DNA from: an uncultured Clostridia bacterium
GTDB taxonomy: Bacteria > Bacillota > Clostridia > Oscillospirales > Oscillospiraceae
Assembly (NCBI GenBank): GCA_947058885.1
Contig: CAMSIF010000002.1
Span: 1-63,407, forward strand
Length of the DNA stretch: 63,407 nucleotides
Direction of reading: 5' to 3'
Program-made: the position numbers and the translations under genes
Notes under the pieces: model-generated
Databases searched by the model: none
Told to the model about the DNA's origin: nothing
The model's input: only the letters and a program-made list of their open reading frames with translations
Shown: positions 1-10,295 of the stretch, piece after piece
How the letters are laid out: the number at the start of each line of letters is the position of its first letter
Position numbering within the stretch: the stretch's first letter is position 1

Positions 1-1585
1 CGTTGGCCGCGCCGGAGGTCTGGGTGTCGAACACCAGCTCCTCGGCGCACCGGCCCGCCAGCAGGGTACGGATTTCTGTGAGGATATCGTCCTTGCTCAT
101 GAGGAATTTTTCCTCCTCCGGCAGGTGGAGGGTGTAGCCCAGAGCTCCCTCGGTGTGGGGAACAATGGTGATTTTCGTAACAGGCTGCGCTTTTTTCTGC
201 TTGGCAGCGGTAAGGGCGTGGCCCACCTCGTGATAGGCGATAATCTTCTTTTCCTGTTCGGTAATCACGGTACCCTTCTTCTCCGCGCCCGCGATGACGG
301 TCTCAAAGGAGGCCAGCAAATCGTCCTGATTGACGGCGTGGCGGCCGTGGCGGACTGCCCGCAGCGCGGCTTCGTTAACTGTGTTCGCCAAATCCGCGCC
401 CACACATCCGGCGGTGGCCTGGGCGATTTTCTCCAGGTTTACGTCCTCCGCCATACGGATTTTCCGGGTGTGAACCTGGAGGGTAGCCAGGCGTCCGGCC
501 AGGTTGGGCCGGTCTACGGTAATGCGCCGGTCAAAGCGGCCGGGGCGCAGCAGAGCTTTATCCAGCACCTCGGGCCGGTTGGTGGCGGCCAGAACGATGA
601 TGCCCTTGGAGGGGTCGAAGCCGTCCATCTCCGCCAGAAGCTGGTTGAGGGTCTGTTCCCGCTCGTCGTTGCCGCCGCCGAAACGGGAGTCACGGGTTTT
701 ACCGATGGCGTCAATTTCATCAATAAAAATGATGCAGGGAGCCACTTTCGCCGCCTCCTGGAACAAATCCCGGACCCGGCTGGCGCCCACGCCTACAAAC
801 ATCTCCACAAAGCCGGAGCCGGAGATAGAGAAAAAGGGTACCCCGGCCTCCCCGGCCACAGCCTTGGCCAACAGAGTCTTGCCGGTACCAGGGGAACCCA
901 CCAGCAGCGCGCCCTTGGGCAGCTTCGCGCCGATGGCGGTGTACTTGCCCGGATTGTGCAGGAAATCAATAATTTCCACCAGGGATTCCTTAGCCTCGTC
1001 CTGACCCGCCACATCGGCAAAGGACACGCCGGTGGATTTCTCCATGTAGACCTTGGCGTTGCTTTTGCCCACGCTGCCGATACCGCCGATGCCGCCGCCC
1101 CGCCGGGCCATCATGTTCATAAACAGCAGGAACGCGCCCACAATCACCACCAGAGGCAGGACATAGGCCACCATGAACTCCAACACAGGACTCATCTCCG
1201 CCACATAGGGGGAGGTGAATTCCACGTTATGCTCCTCCAGCAGGCCGGTCAGTCCCGCGCCGTAGATACCCAGCTGCATAGTGAAGAGGGTGAAGTCCTT
1301 ATCATAGGTCTTGCCCTCCCCGTCGGTGTAGACATACCCCTCCACAGGGGTAATCTCCAGCATCCCGTCCTTGAAGACGACGGAGGCCACCTTGTCTTCC
1401 TCCACCAGGCTCAGGAACTCGCTGTAGAGAATTTCGTGGGTGGTGGCGGCATTGTTGGCCTGTCTGCTGTAGACGGAGAGGTAATTGAAAATGATAGTCA
1501 GACCCACCGCCCAGGCCAGCAAAATCAGCAGGCCGTTCAGATTCTTTTTGTTTTTGTTGTTATTGTTGTTTTGATTGTCGTTCAT
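1..1585 (-). CDS. ftsH: ATP-dependent zinc metalloprotease FtsH (partial, C-terminus outside window)
   Basis: Membrane-anchored AAA+ protease that extracts and degrades misfolded membrane proteins and short-lived regulators. The minus strand reads open from an ATG at 1585 to the window edge (528 codons). It has an Asn/Lys-rich N-terminus, a first membrane segment near residues 18-36, an extracytoplasmic domain, a second segment near 140-160, then the AAA module with Walker A GSPGTGKT at 230-237, Walker B FIDEIDA and the second region of homology (RPGRFDRR). The zinc site HEVGH lies at residues 452-456. The reading stops in the peptidase domain just before the usual third zinc ligand. The start has a good site (GAAGGAG, 7 nt upstream) and its own promoter. 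It is transcribed divergently from rlmB. Identification is firm; only the C-terminus is unseen. Confidence 0.97.
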
Positions 1586-1644
1586 TCTTTTCTCCTTCTA
1601 TTTCAGAGGGCGTTCCGCGAATGGCCCAACGCTATTTCCTATGC

Positions 1645-1673
1645 ATGGTACCACAAAATTCGTCCGGTCACAA
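1645..1673 (-). promoter_or_regulatory. Predicted sigma-A promoter of ftsH
   Basis: On the minus strand, TTGTGA (1673-1668), a 17-bp spacer and TACCAT (1650-1645) with an upstream TG forming an extended -10. It sits about 60 bp before the ftsH start. This is a consensus match only. Confidence 0.5.
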
Positions 1674-1715
1674 GGACTGACTGTGGATTTTCTGTGAAAT
1701 TTCTGTGAATCCCCC

Positions 1716-1745
1716 TTTCACACTCCCCTGGTTTTGTGGTATACT
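1716..1745 (+). promoter_or_regulatory. Predicted sigma-A promoter of rlmB
   Basis: TTTCAC (1716-1721), an 18-bp spacer and TATACT (1740-1745) with TG just upstream. It is about 35 bp before the rlmB start codon and points away from the ftsH promoter, so the two genes form a divergent pair. Confidence 0.5.
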
Positions 1746-1779
1746 GGTTTCATCCTTGCCAGGAAATGGGAGTAGGAAT

Positions 1780-2538
1780 ATGAAAGAACATGAAATCCGG
1801 CCTGAGGCCGAAGGACTCATCGAGGGCCGCAACGCGGTGGCGGAGACCCTGCGCTCCGGTGCGCCTATTGATAAACTCTATATTGCTAAAGGGGAGACGG
1901 ACCGTACCCTTGGCCGTATTGCCGCCGCCGCCCGAAAGTCCGGCGTGGTAGTGGTGGAGGCGGACCGGCGGAAGCTGGATGCCATGAGCGTCACCCACAG
2001 CCACCAGGGCGTTATTGCCCTTGCCGCCGCCCAGGCCTACGCCTCAGTGGAGGATATTCTGCAAAAAGCGGCGGAGCGGGGCGAGCCGCCTCTGCTGGTG
2101 GTCTGCGACGAAATTTCCGACCCCCATAACCTGGGGGCTATTATCCGCACTGCCGAGTGCGCTGGTGCCCACGGCGTCATCATCCCCAAGCGGCGCAGCG
2201 CGGGCCTTACCGCCGTGGTGGCGAAAACCAGCGCGGGAGCGGTCAGTTATATGCCAGTGGCCCGGGTGCCCAACATCCCCGCGCTGCTGAAGGACCTGAA
2301 AAAACAGGGAATCTGGGTGTTCGGCACAGCCGCCGGAGGCAGCGTAGCGCTTTACGAGGCGGATTTGCGCGGTCCCGCCGCCATTGTCATCGGCAGCGAG
2401 GGGGACGGCATGGGCCGTCTGGTGGGGGAGAACTGCGATTTCCAGGTCAGTATTCCCATGAAGGGCCGTATCAACTCCCTAAACGCGTCGGCCGCCGCCG
2501 CTATTCTGCTGTACGAAGCCCTGCGGCAGCGGCGTTAA
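1780..2538 (+). CDS. rlmB: 23S rRNA 2'-O-methyltransferase RlmB (TrmH/SpoU family)
   Basis: SPOUT-class methyltransferase expected to methylate the ribose of a guanosine in 23S rRNA (Gm2251 in E. coli) using S-adenosylmethionine. The 252-residue product has the small N-terminal substrate-binding domain (EGRNAVAETLRSG near residue 15), then the knotted SPOUT domain with motif 1 (DPHNLGAIIRTAE), motif 2 (VIGSEGDGM) and motif 3 (SLNASAAAAILLYEA). Length is normal for RlmB. A longer reading from 1705 is open, but the ATG at 1780 follows GGGAGTAGG and matches the family's N-terminus. The next gene starts 38 bp downstream and may be co-transcribed. TrmH-type paralogues with a tRNA target are the main alternative. 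Confidence 0.9.
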   Translation: MKEHEIRPEAEGLIEGRNAVAETLRSGAPIDKLYIAKGETDRTLGRIAAAARKSGVVVVEADRRKLDAMSVTHSHQGVIALAAAQAYASVEDILQKAAERGEPPLLVVCDEISDPHNLGAIIRTAECAGAHGVIIPKRRSAGLTAVVAKTSAGAVSYMPVARVPNIPALLKDLKKQGIWVFGTAAGGSVALYEADLRGPAAIVIGSEGDGMGRLVGENCDFQVSIPMKGRINSLNASAAAAILLYEALRQRR

Positions 2539-2575
2539 GCGGTACATTCCGCCAGACGCAAGAAAAGAGTATGCT

Positions 2576-4750
2576 ATGACAGAAAAACCGGAACACAATC
2601 AAATAGAGAACGACTCCTCCCTGATGGACACCCAGCGGCTTCTAAGCATGGAGCCCCCAGCGGAAGGAGCCTTCGATTTGGAGGAAATTTTGGCGGAATT
2701 TGGTCCGGGACGTTTTGAGAGCGGCCCGGAGTCCCCTCCGCCAGACGAGCCGGAGGTCCCTCCGCCGGAGGAGCCCGTCTTTTTTGAGGAGCCTCCACAG
2801 CCGCCGGAGGAGCCTGCGCCGCCCGAACCGCAGGAGCCGGCCGCCGCGGACAACGAAGAAGCGGATGAGGAAGCGGTATTCCATACTGGAGCGGAGGAAA
2901 CGTCTCCATTAGTTGAGGAAGAGCCGCCCGCAGAAGCAGAGGAAGAAGCCCCGGAGGATCCGGCCATCTCCATGGAGGATATTGTAGCCAATACAGTGGA
3001 CGCCGTGAAGGGAGAGCAGGAGGAGAAGCAGGAGCGACTGCGCAAACGGCTGGAAAAGGCCCGGAAAAAGCTGATGCGCCGCTCGGAAAAGAGGAAGGAA
3101 CCTGCCGCCCGCCATCCTTTGCCGGAGGTAGAGGAGGAGCCCCTGCCCAGCGAGGAGGCCGTCCGGCACAAGCGGCGGCATCGGGAGTGCCGGAAAAGCC
3201 TTCTGCTGTCCTCGCCTGTGCTGGTGATGCTGTGGATGCCTTGGATCCTGGCCCAATGCGGCGTAGTGGTTCCCTTTTTCAGCGAGAGCGCGGACAACGC
3301 CGCCCTCTGTGTACTGCTTCCCCAGGCGGTAATCAGCGTGTTGTGCTGGCCGGTATTCCGCGCCGCGCTGGGAGGACTGCGCCACGGGGCATGGTCCCTC
3401 TGCGCCACCGCGCTGCTGAGTACTATCATAACCCTTTTTGACGAAATGACTCTTCTGCTGCTGCCTGAGCGCACCGACGCCGCCCCCTTGGGCGGGCTGG
3501 CCGCCACGCTGACCATTTTTGCCCTATGGGGCCTCACCAGCTGGCACCGCGGCATGGCGGAGACCTTCCGTACGGCGGCCATGGGCGAGCCGAGCCAGGT
3601 GGCGGACCGCTGCGGCGGCGCCATCGCCAAGGGAGCGGGAGGCCGGCGGGGCTTCTGCACCCGGGTCAACATGGAGGACACGGCCTCCCAGTGGCAAAGG
3701 CTGCTGCTGCCGGTGCTGGCGGCGGCATCCCTGGTGTTTGCGGTCCTTTCCTCCGTTGGCCAGGAGCGGGGGCAGGACATGCTGTGGTGCTGGTCGGTAA
3801 TCCTCAGCGCCGCGTCGCCGCTGGTGTTTCCGCTGGCGTTTCAGGTCCCGTATGGCCGCATGGCGCTGCGGCTCGCCCGCTCCGGGGCCGCTATGGCAGG
3901 GCATTACGGCGCGGCGGTCCTGGCCTCTTCCCGCCGCCTGGTGGTGACAGATACGGACCTCTTTCCCCAAGGGGCCGCGTCTCTGGGCGGGCTGAAGCTC
4001 TACGGGGAGGAGCGCGGCCGGGCCGTCTCCTACGCCGCTACGCTGGCGGTACAGGGCGGTGGGCTGCTAGGCCGGATTTTTGACGGTGTCTGCCAGAACG
4101 AGCGAATCAGCCTCCAGAGTCTGGAGCATTTCCATATCCACGACGACAACGGTTTCAGCGGCATGATTCATGGGGAGACGGTGCTGGTCGGGCCGCCCGC
4201 CTTCATGCGGCATATGGCGGTGCGCCTGCCCCCTAACATGCCCTCGAAAGCATCTGTCTGCCTGGCTGTGGACGGAAACCTTGTGGCAGTATTCGCCATC
4301 AAGTATAACGCCGCCGATACGGTGGACTACGCCATGCGCCTGCTGCGCCGCAACGGCCTGCAAATCACGCTGGCCTCCCGGGACGGCGGCGTTACGCCAA
4401 AACTGCTCAAGTCCCGGTTTGGTTCTGACTGCGGCGCGGTGGTGCCGGAGCTGGGGGAGCGGCTGAACCTCTCCGACCCGGAGCGCGAGGCGGAGGGGCC
4501 TAACGGTCTTCTCTACCGGGGAGGGCTGCTGCCCTTCGCGTCCCTGGCGGCGGGAAGCCGCCGTCTGTGCCAGACCGTCCTGGTGGGAAATCTCCTGTCC
4601 ATTGCCGGAAGCATTTCCGGCGTGTTGCTGGGGTTCTATCTGACCTTCACTGGAAGTTATAACGTGCTTACGCCGCTGCTGCTGCTTACCTTTTTGGTAT
4701 TATGGGTGGTTCCCATGCTGCCGCTGGTATGGAGCGTGGACAAGCTGTAG
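2576..4750 (+). CDS. Membrane protein resembling a P-type ATPase but lacking catalytic motifs
   Basis: 724 residues. Residues 1-140 are low-complexity Pro/Glu-rich acidic sequence, followed by a basic helical stretch (about 145-200, rich in Lys/Arg/Glu), then four hydrophobic segments (about 205-325), another pair (about 380-430), a soluble region (about 440-650) and a final hairpin of two segments (about 665-720). The part from residue 410 follows the order of heavy-metal P-type ATPases: a membrane segment with ASPL where CPC is expected, a conserved-looking linker, then VVTDTDLFP where the phosphorylation motif DKTGTLT belongs. An N-domain-like stretch (GFSGMIHGETVLVG) and a P-domain-like stretch (DTVDYAMRLLRRNGL, then ASRD instead of TGD) follow. 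Asp459 remains at the phospho-aspartate position, but Lys-Thr-Gly-Thr is gone. I infer a non-transporting, possibly regulatory or structural relative. True function is unknown. Confidence 0.6.
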   Translation: MTEKPEHNQIENDSSLMDTQRLLSMEPPAEGAFDLEEILAEFGPGRFESGPESPPPDEPEVPPPEEPVFFEEPPQPPEEPAPPEPQEPAAADNEEADEEAVFHTGAEETSPLVEEEPPAEAEEEAPEDPAISMEDIVANTVDAVKGEQEEKQERLRKRLEKARKKLMRRSEKRKEPAARHPLPEVEEEPLPSEEAVRHKRRHRECRKSLLLSSPVLVMLWMPWILAQCGVVVPFFSESADNAALCVLLPQAVISVLCWPVFRAALGGLRHGAWSLCATALLSTIITLFDEMTLLLLPERTDAAPLGGLAATLTIFALWGLTSWHRGMAETFRTAAMGEPSQVADRCGGAIAKGAGGRRGFCTRVNMEDTASQWQRLLLPVLAAASLVFAVLSSVGQERGQDMLWCWSVILSAASPLVFPLAFQVPYGRMALRLARSGAAMAGHYGAAVLASSRRLVVTDTDLFPQGAASLGGLKLYGEERGRAVSYAATLAVQGGGLLGRIFDGVCQNERISLQSLEHFHIHDDNGFSGMIHGETVLVGPPAFMRHMAVRLPPNMPSKASVCLAVDGNLVAVFAIKYNAADTVDYAMRLLRRNGLQITLASRDGGVTPKLLKSRFGSDCGAVVPELGERLNLSDPEREAEGPNGLLYRGGLLPFASLAAGSRRLCQTVLVGNLLSIAGSISGVLLGFYLTFTGSYNVLTPLLLLTFLVLWVVPMLPLVWSVDKL

Positions 4751-4845
4751 TTCCCAAGCAAACGGGTCCGGCTGCTGGATGTATCAAAAACAAAGCTCCT
4801 TTTTTGGTGAATCTGTCTAAAATCTAGTCATTAAGAAAATACCAG

Positions 4846-4874
4846 TTGTGCTAAAAGAGAAAAAGTTATATAAT
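4846..4874 (+). promoter_or_regulatory. Predicted sigma-A promoter of the EF-G-like gene
   Basis: TTGTGC (4846-4851), exactly 17 bp, then a perfect TATAAT (4869-4874), in an AT-rich island about 60 bp before the chosen start. A strong consensus match. Confidence 0.7.
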
Positions 4875-4933
4875 TGATTCGTTAGGCAAATTCCTGCTAC
4901 ATGGACACGATAACGGAAGGAGACAAAACTCAT

Positions 4934-7006
4934 ATGGACATTCGCAATATCTGCCTGCTGGGCCACGGCGGCAGCGGGAAAACCTCCCTGGTGGAGAGTA
5001 TGCTGTATATCACCGGCGCTACCGACCGCCTGGGCAAGCCTGCGGACGGCAACACCGTTTGTGACTATGACCCGGAGGAAATCAAACGGCAGATTTCTAT
5101 CTCCCTGGCCATGACGCCCGTTACTTATAATGGCGTGAAAATCAACGTCTTGGACACTCCCGGCAACTTCGACTTTGCCGGAGAGATGCAGTCCGGCGTG
5201 CGGGCCGCCGAGGTGGGCGTGCTGGTTTGCGCCTCCAAGGACGGCCTGAGCGTGGGCGCGGAGCGGGGCTGGAAGTACCTCAAGGCCCAGAAGAAGCCCT
5301 GCATTGTTTATGTCTCCAAGGAGGACGAGGAAAACGCTAACTTCTCCACCACCCTGGAAGCCCTGCGGGAGAACCTTTCCAAGTCCATCGCCCCGGTGGT
5401 GGCCCCCATTTGGGATGAAAATAAGCGCACCATCGGCATTATCGACGTCCTCAACCGCAAGGCTTTCCAGATGCCCAAGGACAAGAAGGGCAAGCGGGTG
5501 GAAATCCCCATCCCCGAGAGCAAGATGGGCGTTCTGGACGAGCTCTACGGCCAGTTGATGGAGGCTGTGGCGGAGACCACCGAGGAGAATATGGAAAAAT
5601 TCTTCTCCGGCGAGTCCTTCACCAAGGAAGAGATTATGACCGGCCTGAAGGTGGGTATGCATGAGGGCACTCTGGCCCCGGTAGTCTGCGGCTCCTCCCT
5701 TACGGGTCTTGGCACCGAGATGCTTCTCTCCACCATCGTAGACCTGGTTCCCGCCCCCGGCGAGATGCCCAGCGAAACTGCTACCGACGAGGCTGGCAGC
5801 GAGGAAATTGAAGTCAAGCGCGACCCCAACGGCCCCACCGCCGCCGTCGTTTTCAAAACCATCTCCGACCAGTACGGCAAATATTCCCTGGTCAAGGTGG
5901 TTTCCGGAAAGATTACCAGCGATATGTCCCTCTACAACCCCAGTACCGGGAAGACGGAAAAATTGGGCCGCCTCTATGTTATTAAAGGCAAGAAAAACGA
6001 GGAGGTCAAGGAGATTGCCTGCGGCGATATCGGCGCAATCGCCAAGATGGACCGTCTGAAAACCGGCGATACCCTCTGCGATCCCAAGCGCGTTGTGAAG
6101 CTGGCCCCGGTGCAGTTTGCCGAGCCCTGCTACTCCCGCGCCATCTCCCCCAAGACCCGGGGCCAGGATGAGAAGGTGGGTACCGGCCTCATCCGCCTCA
6201 ACGAGGAGGACCCCACGTTTTCCGTGGTCAACAACGCCGAGACCCATCAGGTGGTGGTCTCCGGCGCGGGCGACATCCAGATCGACGTGCTGGTCAGCAA
6301 GCTCAAAAGCCGCTTCGGCGTGGAGGCGGAACTGGATACGCCCCGGGTGGCCTACCGCGAGAAAATCCGCAAACAGGTGCGCAAGCAGGGCCGCCATAAG
6401 AAGCAGACCGGCGGCAGCGGCCAGTTCGGCGACGTACATATTGTCTTCGAGCCCCAGGACGAGCAGGAGGATATGATTTTCGCGGAGGAGGTCTTCGGCG
6501 GCAGCGTGCCCAAGAATTTCTTCCCCGCCGTTGAAAAGGGCCTGCGGGAAGCCTGTGTCCACGGCGTGCTGGCGGGCTATCCCATGGTGTTCCTGAAGGC
6601 CACCCTGGTGGACGGCTCCTATCACCCCGTTGATTCCTCTGAAATTGCCTTCAAGACCGCCGCCCAGCTGGCCTACAAGGCCGCGCTGCCCGAGGCGTCT
6701 CCCGTGCTACTGGAGCCCATTGGCGAGCTGAAGGTCACCATTCCCGACAATTACATGGGCGATATCATTGGGGACCTGAACAAGCGCCGGGGCCGCGTCA
6801 TGGGCATGAACCCCACCGGCGACGGCAGCCAGATTGTGGAGGCCGAGGTGCCTATGGCGGAAATGATGACTTACGCTATTGACCTGCGCTCTATGAGCCA
6901 GTCCCGCGGGTCGTTCACCTTCCACTTTGTCCGCTATGAGGAGTGTCCTCCGGCGGCCCAGGAGAAGGCTATCGCTGAGGCCAAGGCCCTGGCGGAAGCG
7001 GAGTAA
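4934..7006 (+). CDS. Elongation factor G-like translational GTPase
   Basis: Five-domain EF-G-type GTPase, 690 residues: G domain (1-270), domain II (about 300-390), domains III-V to the C-terminus (GELKVTIPDNYMGDIIGDLNKRRG is the domain V core). It belongs to the EF-G-like subgroup seen beside canonical FusA rather than FusA itself. The P-loop is GHGGSGKTSL instead of AHIDAGKTT, G3 is DTPGNFDF rather than DTPGHVDF, and G4 reads SKED where NKxD is usual. It probably acts on the ribosome, but whether it translocates, recycles or does something else cannot be told from sequence. An upstream ATG at 4901 is in frame but has no ribosome site. The ATG at 4934 follows GGAAGGAG with good spacing. It has its own promoter and stands alone before a convergent hairpin. 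Confidence 0.85.
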   Translation: MDIRNICLLGHGGSGKTSLVESMLYITGATDRLGKPADGNTVCDYDPEEIKRQISISLAMTPVTYNGVKINVLDTPGNFDFAGEMQSGVRAAEVGVLVCASKDGLSVGAERGWKYLKAQKKPCIVYVSKEDEENANFSTTLEALRENLSKSIAPVVAPIWDENKRTIGIIDVLNRKAFQMPKDKKGKRVEIPIPESKMGVLDELYGQLMEAVAETTEENMEKFFSGESFTKEEIMTGLKVGMHEGTLAPVVCGSSLTGLGTEMLLSTIVDLVPAPGEMPSETATDEAGSEEIEVKRDPNGPTAAVVFKTISDQYGKYSLVKVVSGKITSDMSLYNPSTGKTEKLGRLYVIKGKKNEEVKEIACGDIGAIAKMDRLKTGDTLCDPKRVVKLAPVQFAEPCYSRAISPKTRGQDEKVGTGLIRLNEEDPTFSVVNNAETHQVVVSGAGDIQIDVLVSKLKSRFGVEAELDTPRVAYREKIRKQVRKQGRHKKQTGGSGQFGDVHIVFEPQDEQEDMIFAEEVFGGSVPKNFFPAVEKGLREACVHGVLAGYPMVFLKATLVDGSYHPVDSSEIAFKTAAQLAYKAALPEASPVLLEPIGELKVTIPDNYMGDIIGDLNKRRGRVMGMNPTGDGSQIVEAEVPMAEMMTYAIDLRSMSQSRGSFTFHFVRYEECPPAAQEKAIAEAKALAEAE

Positions 7007-7109
7007 GAATACCAGAAAAATGGGAGGCAGGGGGTTCCCCTCTGTGCCCTGCACGATAGCCTCAGCCTGCGCTATCCGTAAAGGCTGATAACAGTTATTC
7101 CCCAATACA

Positions 7110-7159
7110 GGGACCGCCGGAAGAGAGAGTTTTGAAAACTCAATCTTTCCGGCGGTCCT
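7110..7159. terminator. Long hairpin between convergent genes
   Basis: Arms GGACCGCCGGAAGA and TCTTTCCGGCGGTCC enclose a second pairing GAGTTTT/AAAACTC. It lies between the ends of the EF-G-like gene and the M50 gene, so it probably terminates from both sides. There is no clear U-run, which lowers certainty. Confidence 0.55.
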
Positions 7160-7166
7160 CTTGCCG

Positions 7167-7754
7167 TCAGATAACCGGCCGCACTACTTTTTTCGCGGCA
7201 TACGGAAGCAGTGTGCCCACGGCTCCCAGCAGCAGGAACAGTCCCGCTCCATGCCAAAGGGTCAGCAGCAGCGCAGCCGCCGTCAAAACCAGGGAACAGC
7301 CTAAGCCCACGGTTTCGCAGATTTGGTCAGCCGCTACCGGGTCTGCCAGCCAGCTGACCAGCAGAAACAACGCCCTTCCGCCGTCCAACGAGGCCATTGG
7401 CAGCAGATTAAAGACGCCCAGCAGCAGATTGGCTCCCGCCAGTACATAGTCTCCCGCTACTCGGGCCAGTACCAGTGCCAGAACCAGGTTTACCGCTGGG
7501 CCCGCCAGGGTGCATAGGATTTCCCGACCATAGGGCAGGTATCGGGTATCCGCCCGGATTTCCGCGCCGAAGGCGGTCAGGCGGAAACGCTCCACCCCTG
7601 CTCCCGCCAGCCGCAAAGCGCCCAGATGCCCCAGCTCGTGGCACAGAGCGGACAGTCCAACCAGAGGCAGTACGCTGCCTGCGCCCGCCAATACCGCCAA
7701 CAGCAGCATACAGCCAAAACCCCAAGTGACCTCTATTTTACCCAATTTCCACAT
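7167..7754 (-). CDS. M50 family intramembrane metalloprotease (SpoIVFB-like)
   Basis: Site-2-protease-type zinc enzyme that cuts membrane-embedded substrates. About 195 residues, nearly all hydrophobic: the zinc motif HELGH is at residues 39-43 and the third ligand lies in LLPMASLDGG (Asp124). Both are intact, so it should be active. The stop of the upstream M23 gene overlaps this gene's first codons, a sign of translational coupling. The start is uncertain: ATG at 7754 gives the family-like beginning MWKLGKIEV, but in-frame TTG (7796) and ATG (7787) exist upstream inside the M23 gene. The M23-M50 order matches spoIVFA-spoIVFB, whose products control pro-sigma-K cleavage in the mother cell of spore formers. 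That role is inferred from domain pairing only. Confidence 0.85.
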   Translation of the reverse strand: MWKLGKIEVTWGFGCMLLLAVLAGAGSVLPLVGLSALCHELGHLGALRLAGAGVERFRLTAFGAEIRADTRYLPYGREILCTLAGPAVNLVLALVLARVAGDYVLAGANLLLGVFNLLPMASLDGGRALFLLVSWLADPVAADQICETVGLGCSLVLTAAALLLTLWHGAGLFLLLGAVGTLLPYAAKKVVRPVI

Positions 7755-8739
7755 AATAGATTGGATTGAGATATAAATCTCCGTCATGCAGCTCAAAATG
7801 GAGATGGGGTCCGGTAGTACGCCCGGTGGACCCCACCTCCGCGATTTTATCTCCCTTTGACACGGCTCCGCCAGTGGCGGTCACCTTACTGCAATGGCCA
7901 TACAGCGTGATATATCCGCCTTGGTGGCGCAGCATAATATAATTGCCCAAAGTGCTGCTCTCCCCGGTAGCGTACACGGTACCGTCGGCAAAGGCGGCAA
8001 TATCCGTGCCGTCGTCCGCCGCCAGGTCCACGCCGTAATGAAACTTATTCCCGCCTTCCACGGGATGCTCCCGCCAGCCAAAGGAGGAAGTGAGCACGCC
8101 GCTGACGGGGGTGCAGTGGTCAAACCCCAGGTTGCGCTGTTCCAGGCTGGCGTTTTCCGGCGGGGCGGGCATGGTGTAGACATAGGAGAGAGCTTCCGAG
8201 CTGGCGCCGCTTTCGGACGGCACGCCTGCCACCGGACTCTGGAGCGGTCCTGAGACCAGCGGCGCGTCCGCCGCCGGAAGGCCAACGTACCGCACCAGCC
8301 TGCCTCCGGTCTGCCCGTCTGACGGACTGGAAGGGGCCGTCTGAGCAGGCGAAGCTTCCTGGTCTTCCACCGCGGGCAGGGGATCGGGGGCCTCCGCGCC
8401 GGTCTCCTGCTGAGAGCGGGCGGAGGGGTTGAATACGGCGGTATAGGCGTCCTGGAGGGAACTGCCCACCGGCTCCTCGCCGCTGATGGCCCGGCCTACG
8501 GCGGCAAAAGCCTCCTTAAAATCAGCGTTGCGTCCAATTAACTGGCCTGCGGACTGGGCAAGGCTGTCCACTGTCTCCGGAAACAAAAGCTTTACCAAAA
8601 CCAGCAGCACAAAAACCGCGCCGCAGATGACCAGCCGGACCATAGCCCTATCTCCGGCGGAGCTGCCCTGCGCTCTGGCCCGGCTGCGGCGGATTTGTTC
8701 CGCGCGGCGGCGCGCGGCGTCTGACCTGTTCAAATCCAT
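7738..8739 (-). CDS. Membrane-anchored M23 (LytM) peptidase, SpoIVFA-like position
   Basis: About 333 residues: a basic cytoplasmic N-terminus (RRRAEQIRRSRARAQ), one transmembrane helix near residues 35-55, a long Pro/Ser/Glu-rich linker, then a C-terminal LytM domain. All zinc-site residues are present: His234 and Asp238 in HYGVD, and His312/His314 in HLHFE, so it could be an active cell-wall endopeptidase. The pairing with an M50 protease downstream suggests a SpoIVFA-like partner, although a fully conserved LytM site also fits a plain hydrolase. The start is ambiguous: ATG at 8739 is only one base from AGGAGG, while TTG at 8733 has ideal spacing. The gene diverges from the FAD oxidoreductase. 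Confidence 0.85.
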   Translation of the reverse strand: MDLNRSDAARRRAEQIRRSRARAQGSSAGDRAMVRLVICGAVFVLLVLVKLLFPETVDSLAQSAGQLIGRNADFKEAFAAVGRAISGEEPVGSSLQDAYTAVFNPSARSQQETGAEAPDPLPAVEDQEASPAQTAPSSPSDGQTGGRLVRYVGLPAADAPLVSGPLQSPVAGVPSESGASSEALSYVYTMPAPPENASLEQRNLGFDHCTPVSGVLTSSFGWREHPVEGGNKFHYGVDLAADDGTDIAAFADGTVYATGESSTLGNYIMLRHQGGYITLYGHCSKVTATGGAVSKGDKIAEVGSTGRTTGPHLHFELHDGDLYLNPIYYVEIG

Positions 8740-8840
8740 CCCTCCTTTTTCCTGCCCTAGTTTATGCGCCAGGTGGGCTGAATTATGCAAAAGACGGTTA
8801 TTCTTCCTGTTTCTGGAAAAGCTAGGAGGGAGGTGATGAC

Positions 8841-10295
8841 ATGGAATCCATATGGCACAGAACGGCGAAGCTGTCCCCCAAACCCTCGCTGAAGGGCAAT
8901 CTGGCGGTGGACGCCGCCGTCATCGGCGGGGGGCTGGCGGGCGTTTTGACCGCATCCCTGCTGTGGGAGGCGGGGTTGAGAACGGTGGTTCTGGAGGCGG
9001 ACCGGGCGGGGTCCGGACAGACAGGAAATACCACCGCCAAGGTGACGGCTCAGCATGGAGACATTTACTGCCGCCTGGAGGAGTCCCTGGGACCCGAGGC
9101 CGCCGCGCTGTACGCGGAAGCAAATCAGAAAGCGGTCGAACAGTACGAGACGATGATTCGGAAGAGAAACATCTCCTGCGGCTGGGAACGCCTGCCCGCT
9201 TGGCTCTACTCCCGGTCCGGCGAAAACACGCTGGCCCGGGAGGCGGAGGCGCAGAAGAGAGCTGGACTTCCCGCCGGATTTACGAAGGACGCCGGACTCC
9301 CCTTCCCCATCAAAGGAGCGGTACGCTGCGAGGGGCAGGCACAGTTTCACCCGCTGGAATTCCTATTTTCTCTGGCTGACAATCTGGAAATTTATGAGGG
9401 TACCCGGGTGCTGGAGGTGGAAGGAGATCAGCTGCGCACTTCCGGCGGCCTGGTCCGGGCAAAGCATATCGTGTTCGCCTGTCACTTCCCATTTGTGAAC
9501 GCGCCGGGGTACTACTTTTTGCGGATGCACCAGGAGAGAAGCTATGCTGTGGCTCTGCGGGGCGGGCCGGAACTGGAGGGGATGTACTACAGCGTCGACC
9601 CAGGCGGACTTTCTCTGCGCAGGGCGGGAGAGTATCTGCTTGTAGGGGGCGGAAGCCACCGTACTGGCGAGAATCAGGACGGCGGAAAATATGAGGCCCT
9701 GTCCCGGTCTGCCGGACTGCTCTTCCCAGAGGCGAAGGAGGCCGCCCGCTGGTCCGCCCAGGACTGCGTAACATTGGACGGCGTGCCGTATATCGGACAG
9801 TTTTCCGCCTCCACGCCCAGCTGGTATGTTGCCACAGGCTTTGGTAAGTGGGGGATGACCCACTCAATGGTGGCAGCGCAGCTGCTTCGGGATCAGATTC
9901 TGGGCCGGGAGAATCCATATGCCGGAATTTTTTCCCCGCAGCGTTTTACGCCGGCCGCATCCGCTGGGCAGCTGCTAAGCAACGGCCTCCACGCTGTCCG
10001 GGATTTGGGCCGGGAGCTGCTGGCTCCGGCCCGGGGGGCGGCGGGGACACTGCCTCCTGGGCGCGGGGGCGTTGTGGAGCTCGAGGGGGAGAAGGTTGGC
10101 GTATACCGGACAGCGGACGGCGAAGCGTATATTGTAGATATCCGCTGCCCGCATTTGGGGTGCCAGCTGGAGTGGAACCCGGACGAGAAAAGTTGGGACT
10201 GCCCTTGTCACGGCTCGCGGTTCGATGAACGTGGACGGCTGCTGTGCGGTCCGGCCCAACAGGACCTGTGGTCCGCCCGAATTGAGGAGCTGTAG
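8841..10295 (+). CDS. FAD-dependent oxidoreductase with C-terminal Rieske [2Fe-2S] domain
   Basis: 484 residues. The N-terminal part is a DadA/glycine-oxidase-type fold with the FAD motif GGGLAGVLTASLLWEAG near residues 30-45 and the adenine-binding Glu after it. The FAD-closing segment DGVPYIG and GFGKWGMTHS are near 315-345. The last 80 residues are a Rieske domain: Cys436 and His438 in CPHLGC and Cys454 and His457 in CPCHGS bind the cluster, with Cys441 and Cys456 placed as the disulfide pair. It is expected to oxidise an amine or similar substrate and pass electrons through FAD to the cluster. The substrate is unknown. The start is clear (GGAGGGAGGTGATGACATG). The fusion is a known architecture in Bacillus and Clostridia. 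Confidence 0.9.
   Translation: MESIWHRTAKLSPKPSLKGNLAVDAAVIGGGLAGVLTASLLWEAGLRTVVLEADRAGSGQTGNTTAKVTAQHGDIYCRLEESLGPEAAALYAEANQKAVEQYETMIRKRNISCGWERLPAWLYSRSGENTLAREAEAQKRAGLPAGFTKDAGLPFPIKGAVRCEGQAQFHPLEFLFSLADNLEIYEGTRVLEVEGDQLRTSGGLVRAKHIVFACHFPFVNAPGYYFLRMHQERSYAVALRGGPELEGMYYSVDPGGLSLRRAGEYLLVGGGSHRTGENQDGGKYEALSRSAGLLFPEAKEAARWSAQDCVTLDGVPYIGQFSASTPSWYVATGFGKWGMTHSMVAAQLLRDQILGRENPYAGIFSPQRFTPAASAGQLLSNGLHAVRDLGRELLAPARGAAGTLPPGRGGVVELEGEKVGVYRTADGEAYIVDIRCPHLGCQLEWNPDEKSWDCPCHGSRFDERGRLLCGPAQQDLWSARIEEL

Follow-up and report, generated by a model that had tools for sequence, protein, structure and literature searches.

A near-universal pseudo-P1B-ATPase of Oscillospirales, encoded behind rlmB and devoid of the pump motifs

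What becomes of a P-type ATPase, a protein defined by its phosphorylated aspartate, once the motifs of the pump cycle are gone? The question is raised by a 724-residue membrane protein encoded in a stretch of 63,407 nt (contig CAMSIF010000002.1 of assembly GCA_947058885.1; the whole stretch is called the window here) from an uncultured Clostridia bacterium of the order Oscillospirales, family Oscillospiraceae. A preliminary description of this DNA had taken the protein for a degenerate P-type ATPase; the observation was confirmed, and its interpretation is supported by the analyses below. The open reading frame (ORF), which starts with ATG, is genuine and conserved in relatives. We propose, with moderate confidence, that its product is a pseudoenzyme, a non-pumping membrane pseudo-ATPase encoded by a core gene of the order and acting as a receptor or scaffold with an acidic docking tail.

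Homology to pumps emerged at the level of the family. No Pfam family matched the 724-residue protein (best E = 0.65), a Pfam search with 37 homologous cores gave no P-type model at E ≤ 0.1, and single-sequence matches were marginal (NCBIfam TIGR01525, E = 0.0011; LpCopA in the PDB, E = 0.0031). A profile of 37 family cores matched LpCopA at E = 4e-35, with positions 1–529 of 531 aligned. The same profile reached Archaeoglobus CopA at 1e-23, the Zn/Cd P1B ATPases more weakly (ZntA 4umv, 5e-9; 7qbz, 1.8e-12) and Na,K-ATPase at best at 1.2e-4. Foldseek, run with a low-confidence model, matched LpCopA at E = 5e-11. Profile and Foldseek together place the protein, by descent, in the P-type ATPase superfamily. 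Eight membrane helices in a P1B-like arrangement were predicted from hydropathy runs grouped by eye, and one extra run, at residues 566–570, falls inside the N domain. The N domain has the P1B fold; the rows listed in the VIA-align comparison span chiefly model residues 24–157. The preliminary description had seen the P-type segment order in the last 300 residues; that homology is real, but it covers residues 205–724 and includes the first four helices.

The nearest system in both the profile search and the trees was the P1B-1 copper pump CopA (Legionella LpCopA, 3rfu/4bbj; Archaeoglobus CopA). The two have in common the eight-helix plan, the helix order, the N-domain fold, the N-domain glycines (526 and 539) and the Asp of TGD. 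Unlike CopA, the pseudo-ATPase has no metal-binding domain, CPC, A-domain core or GDGxND segment, carries (T)DxDLFP for DKTGT, lacks the Glu and His of SEHPL, and has an added acidic extension. The Zn/Cd P1B ATPases share the overall plan, and relative to them the same losses were seen. Phylogenetic analysis recovered the family as one clade (support 100/100) adjoining the copper-type pumps, with the Zn/Cd pumps branching outside (100/99); a quick tree gave 85% support for a joint clade of copper-type pumps and pseudo-ATPases. Judged by these sequence comparisons, the protein is a descendant of a CopA-type (P1B) copper pump. A very long branch leads to the family (in three trees, 1.7, 2.7 and 3.9 changes per column), which makes the family's position in them unsure.

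We then surveyed the distribution of the family. In a first sample, 58 of 60 relatives matched, two of these with the front part only. Within the order, represented by the genome itself and genomes at least 90% complete, 290 of 297 genomes and 144 of 146 genera matched at E ≤ 1e-40, with at most four candidates scored per genome; a second match was found in two of the 290. Among the genomes left over, G706 has a divergent copy downstream of rlmB, which a local search matched at E = 1e-34, and in G448 a contig breaks off, as seen by eye, within a member whose beginning, front motif included, is present. The five remaining genomes (G473 and G523 from one genus, G390, G493 and G620), listed as 95–100% complete, gave no pseudo-ATPase, and their rlmB matches were all weak and paralogue-like (1e-8 to 1e-18), although rlmB was found in all 41 genomes of a class sample. 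The two genes are thus missing together in these five, by loss or by an assembly gap; a joint loss is possible. In a phylum sample of 299 genomes, again with at most four candidates each, four matched at E ≤ 1e-45, all of them in Oscillospirales, and the other 295 gave no match. In a class sample of 391, with at most three candidates per genome scored, 17 of the 18 genomes of the order reached at least 250 bits; the best outsider reached 120 bits, and the 13 best outsiders were intact pumps (30 loci examined).

Residue counts were made on 128 loci, one per genome: 56 from the first sample, 12 from the class sample and 60 from the order-survey matches listed, the last hand-picked for spread over genera. 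Left out were same-genus contigs (L001–L015), second loci (L072–L074, L076 and L078), further order-survey loci (L103–L128, some of them from genomes not otherwise included) and L189 onward. Ten of the 128 were short or weak (ORF under 560 residues or under 300 bits), and two split members (L059 and L060) were kept so. In L182–L184, frames of 836 residues end at the core end, and we infer that the in-frame stop is terminal.

An alignment to the family profile that also took in 13 intact P1B pumps of the class showed that the family has lost the motifs of the pump cycle. DKTGT and CPC occurred in none of the 128 members. Neither did GDGxND, and the P-domain segment of about 32 residues is absent relative to LpCopA. 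Opposite LpCopA, the A domain lacks its TGES core, and none of the 128 has TGES there; the strings DKTG (three members) and TGE (two members) sit at unrelated positions. For CPC, the first Cys is present in 4 members, the second in 2 and the Pro in 74. The ATP-binding Glu of SEHPL is kept in 3 members and its His in none; of the GxG of the N domain, the second Gly stands in 127 and the first in 35. The readings of CPC as S414-P415-L416 and of TGD as S601-R602-D603 in the preliminary description were correct. Its view that the catalytic aspartate survives as Asp459 was not upheld. The phosphorylation loop aligned without gaps to that of the 13 active pumps, and the catalytic Asp column fell on Thr458 (T 48, D 19, R 16, S 11, A 11 and others across the family). 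The Lys column of DKTGT is occupied by Asp459 (D 105/128) and the Gly column by Asp461 (D 95, E 25); after the latter come F in 108 and then P in 119 members. A one-residue shift of the loop may restore the equivalence of Asp459. With these motifs gone, the protein would no longer be phosphorylated, dephosphorylated or metal-binding in the known way.

What replaced the motifs is well conserved. The pocket, defined as 33 columns on the active-pump motifs, averaged 2.20 bits against 1.38 for the remaining soluble domain, and none of 5000 random placements of equal-length segments reached its conservation. Tyr577 is new (121/128), standing where pumps carry Asp. Asp603 is present in 124 members, and two places on there is Asn in 107, with Gly in the window protein. 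Of the two N-domain glycines, Gly526 is retained in 127 members and Gly539 in all 128. Across the core, the column of highest information content was that of Trp710. The ratio of nonsynonymous to synonymous rates (dN/dS) had a median of 0.36 over 231 within-genus pairs (range 0.04–0.68) versus 0.24 for rlmB (185 pairs). The new pocket residues are fixed and conserved, which indicates the pattern of a rebuilt site and not of decay.

The acidic Pro/Glu-rich front and the basic stretch of the preliminary description were both found in the window protein (Table 1), and a helix was predicted at residues 133–169 in the low-confidence model. For the homologues, we used the 115 of 128 loci whose 5' end is complete and whose core is preceded by 60 residues or more. 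The median length of these N-termini ahead of the core was 263 residues, with 23% acidic residues; 104 of the 115 were net negative away from the membrane. A pattern of the LEEILAEF type occurred in 73 of the 115 N-termini, compared with a mean of 0.6% and a maximum of 3.5% in shuffles; the N-termini are related sequences and so not independent. LEEILAEF was also considered as an element common to other proteins of the genome, and this was rejected: two DNA patterns matched this gene alone.

The genomic setting was constant on one side. A same-strand rlmB precedes the gene in 116 of the 128 loci, or all but one of the 117 with upstream sequence; of the 12 loci without it, 11 have at most 13 nt upstream, and in L049 the two genes are separated. 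For 110 of the 116, the distance from stop codon to stop codon falls in the range −250 to +110, the six outlying values being −550, −493, 143, 159, 447 and 1097 (the last from the split L059). Outside the order, one of 28 rlmB loci had a P-type ATPase as the next ORF, in a survey of 30 of 41 loci in which the first downstream ORF was taken by length. That locus belongs to a family (f42) of another order of the class, in which 5 of the 14 genomes that have rlmB encode an intact CopA immediately after it (L278–L282, in G076, G138, G187, G165 and G111); we are aware of no published account of the pair, although no search aimed at one was made. Unlike the pseudo-ATPase, these pumps retain CPC, DKTGT, TGES, GDGxND and a metal-binding motif. 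The common slot, a possible ancestral arrangement, suggests, without showing, that an intact copA of this kind gave rise to the dead gene. Descent from the f42 gene is hinted at by position and received no support from the trees: grouping with f42 CopA was rejected by the approximately unbiased (AU) test with a Zn outgroup (p = 0.0198) and was not rejected without an outgroup (p = 0.117).

Under the reading that we favour, the pump cycle would have been lost and the eight-helix protein kept as a core gene of the order. The rebuilt pocket (Asp459/Asp461, Phe463-Pro464, Tyr577 and Asp603) may bind a small ligand or ion; alternatively, it may lock the N and P domains into a single arrangement. 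The acidic front, which has a short hydrophobic-acidic motif close to its beginning, would serve to dock a partner from the cytosol at the membrane. The foremost candidate for this partner is RlmB or the ribosome, since no neighbour other than rlmB is constant, and the adjacency suggests that the two genes are probably co-transcribed.

Several points weigh against this proposal. The role of receptor or scaffold, although the most likely one, is a role that we infer. Speaking against full loss, 19 of the 128 members have Asp in the catalytic column, although KTGT never follows it. The P domain was modelled poorly, with block means of the predicted local distance difference test (pLDDT) from 28 to 66 past residue 578, and its fold is unconfirmed. 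The pocket segments were set after the column counts were known, and the membrane part averaged 1.16 bits, below the pocket. The strict docking-motif pattern is absent in 42 of the 115 N-termini. Finally, a constant link to the downstream EF-G-like gene was rejected: 44 loci have no such gene despite over 2 kb of downstream sequence.

A wider claim is advanced more tentatively, and we lean slightly against it as a whole. The family may be the first in the P-type ATPase superfamily to have turned into a pure receptor, its cycle abolished once at the base of the order, its pocket rebuilt as a ligand site and a docking tail added, to give a core gene that defines the order and is linked to rRNA methylation, with an intact rlmB-linked copA as possible ancestor. 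A 2023 review recognises P-type families P1 to P6 and, in the part of its text considered here, names no dead family (PMC10654040). Among the matches listed, the open-access literature yielded no dead P-type ATPase family, most subscription papers lying outside that coverage. A near-universal dead family would offer a natural test of what the P-type scaffold does without pumping, and the pseudo-ATPase is a concrete core gene of unassigned role in an anaerobic order, beside a ribosome-maturation enzyme.

Among the alternatives, the one that survives best, though we consider it unlikely, is that the pseudo-ATPase joins an intact CopA or Zn/Cd pump of the same cell in a heteromer and tunes it. 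Pseudoenzymes often regulate active paralogues. All 20 genomes searched, the host's own included, encode a heavy-metal pump over the family cut-off; motifs were checked in part of these pumps and are intact in two from the host's own genome (L211 and L222). However, the constant neighbour is rlmB, with the downstream genes varying, and the metal-binding CPC is lost; P1B pumps are not known to require a sister subunit.

A passive channel or permease, in which the ATP cycle is gone and the helix bundle still passes an ion or small molecule, seems rather improbable. All eight helices are retained and Pro379, Pro425 and Trp710 are conserved in or beside them, but the membrane part is less conserved than the pocket, and CPC is lost, with its Pro retained in 74 of 128 members.

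We give still less credence to a residual HAD-type phosphatase or phosphotransfer chemistry, with the Asp-x-Asp of residues 459 and 461 as nucleophile and acid. D459-T460-D461 does resemble motif I (DxD) of HAD phosphatases; Asp or Glu fills the Asp461 column in 120 of 128 members, and 120 have Asp in either the catalytic column or the one after it. Against this, the P-domain segment carrying GDGxND (HAD motif IV) is missing relative to LpCopA, with GDGxND in none of the 128, the Thr column of TGD (motif II) holds Thr or Ser in just 78, and the nucleophile column is displaced by one residue in most members. On the comparison of motifs I, II and IV, the DxD-like loop is present and the motif IV region absent, and the protein was not placed among the HAD phosphatases.

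A decaying pseudogene or assembly artefact, to which the lost catalytic motifs, the long branches and the few split or cut members (L059, L060) might point, we hold refuted by the near-universal presence in the order, the mostly open reading frames, the dN/dS and the new residues fixed in the pocket.

Table 1. Features of the pseudo-ATPase gene and its surroundings, in positions of the window
Feature	Positions	Strand	Basis
Pseudo-P1B-ATPase, 724 residues	2576..4750	+	ORF, conservation, profile homology
Acidic Pro/Glu-rich extension, residues 1–130, probably disordered	2576..2965	+	Net charge −38; pLDDT under 50
Putative docking motif LEEILAEF, residues 35–42	2678..2701	+	Pattern scan of N-termini
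Basic stretch, residues 154–175, before first membrane helix	3035..3100	+	Net charge +10
First four membrane helices (MA, MB, M1, M2 positions of P1B pumps)	3194..3559	+	Hydropathy; LpCopA profile alignment
Actuator (A) domain remnant, about 47 residues, without TGES core	3560..3700	+	Gap opposite LpCopA A domain
Helices equivalent to M3–M4	3701..3847	+	Hydropathy; family alignment
SPL (residues 414–416) replacing CPC	3815..3823	+	Family alignment
Rebuilt phosphorylation loop TDTDLFP (residues 458–464) replacing DKTGTLT	3947..3967	+	Column counts, 128 members
N domain, residues 467–578; fold kept, SEHPL Glu and His lost	3974..4309	+	Column counts; model comparison
SRDGG (residues 601–605) replacing TGDN; Asp603 kept	4376..4390	+	Column counts, 128 members
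Two closing membrane helices (M5–M6), including Trp710	4571..4747	+	Hydropathy; column information content
rlmB, 23S rRNA (guanosine-2251-2'-O)-methyltransferase	1705..2538	+	TIGR00186, 241 bits (cut-off 160)
Promoter-like site TTCACA-17-TATACT, extended −10	1717..1745	+	Consensus scan, 10/12 matches; weak evidence
EF-G-like gene, downstream of pseudo-ATPase	4901..7006	+	NF009381, 846 bits (cut-off 583)

The preliminary description had correctly placed the gene between an rRNA methylation gene, rlmB, and an EF-G-like gene (Table 1). The true start of rlmB, judged by eye, is perhaps near 1780, and the promoter-like site, which precedes rlmB, could serve both it and the pseudo-ATPase gene. A scan of positions 1500–5000 gave terminator-like sites on the same strand at 1665, 3712 and 4615, a number no higher than in shuffles, and none between the two genes. 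No RNA family reached its gathering threshold in positions 1–9000 of the window. The EF-G-like protein scores 612 bits as canonical EF-G, short of the 659-bit cut-off; such a gene lies downstream in 61 of the 128 loci, and the other genes downstream vary between loci. Beside rlmB and divergent from it, a gene for an FtsH-type protease (positions 2–1585, minus strand; TIGR01241, 654 bits, cut-off 600) runs off the left end of the window. Further downstream, at 7167–7796 and 7738–8790 (minus strand), a small, weakly RseP-like protein (27 bits, cut-off 148) adjoins an M23-type peptidoglycan peptidase, whose matches are below the curated cut-offs.
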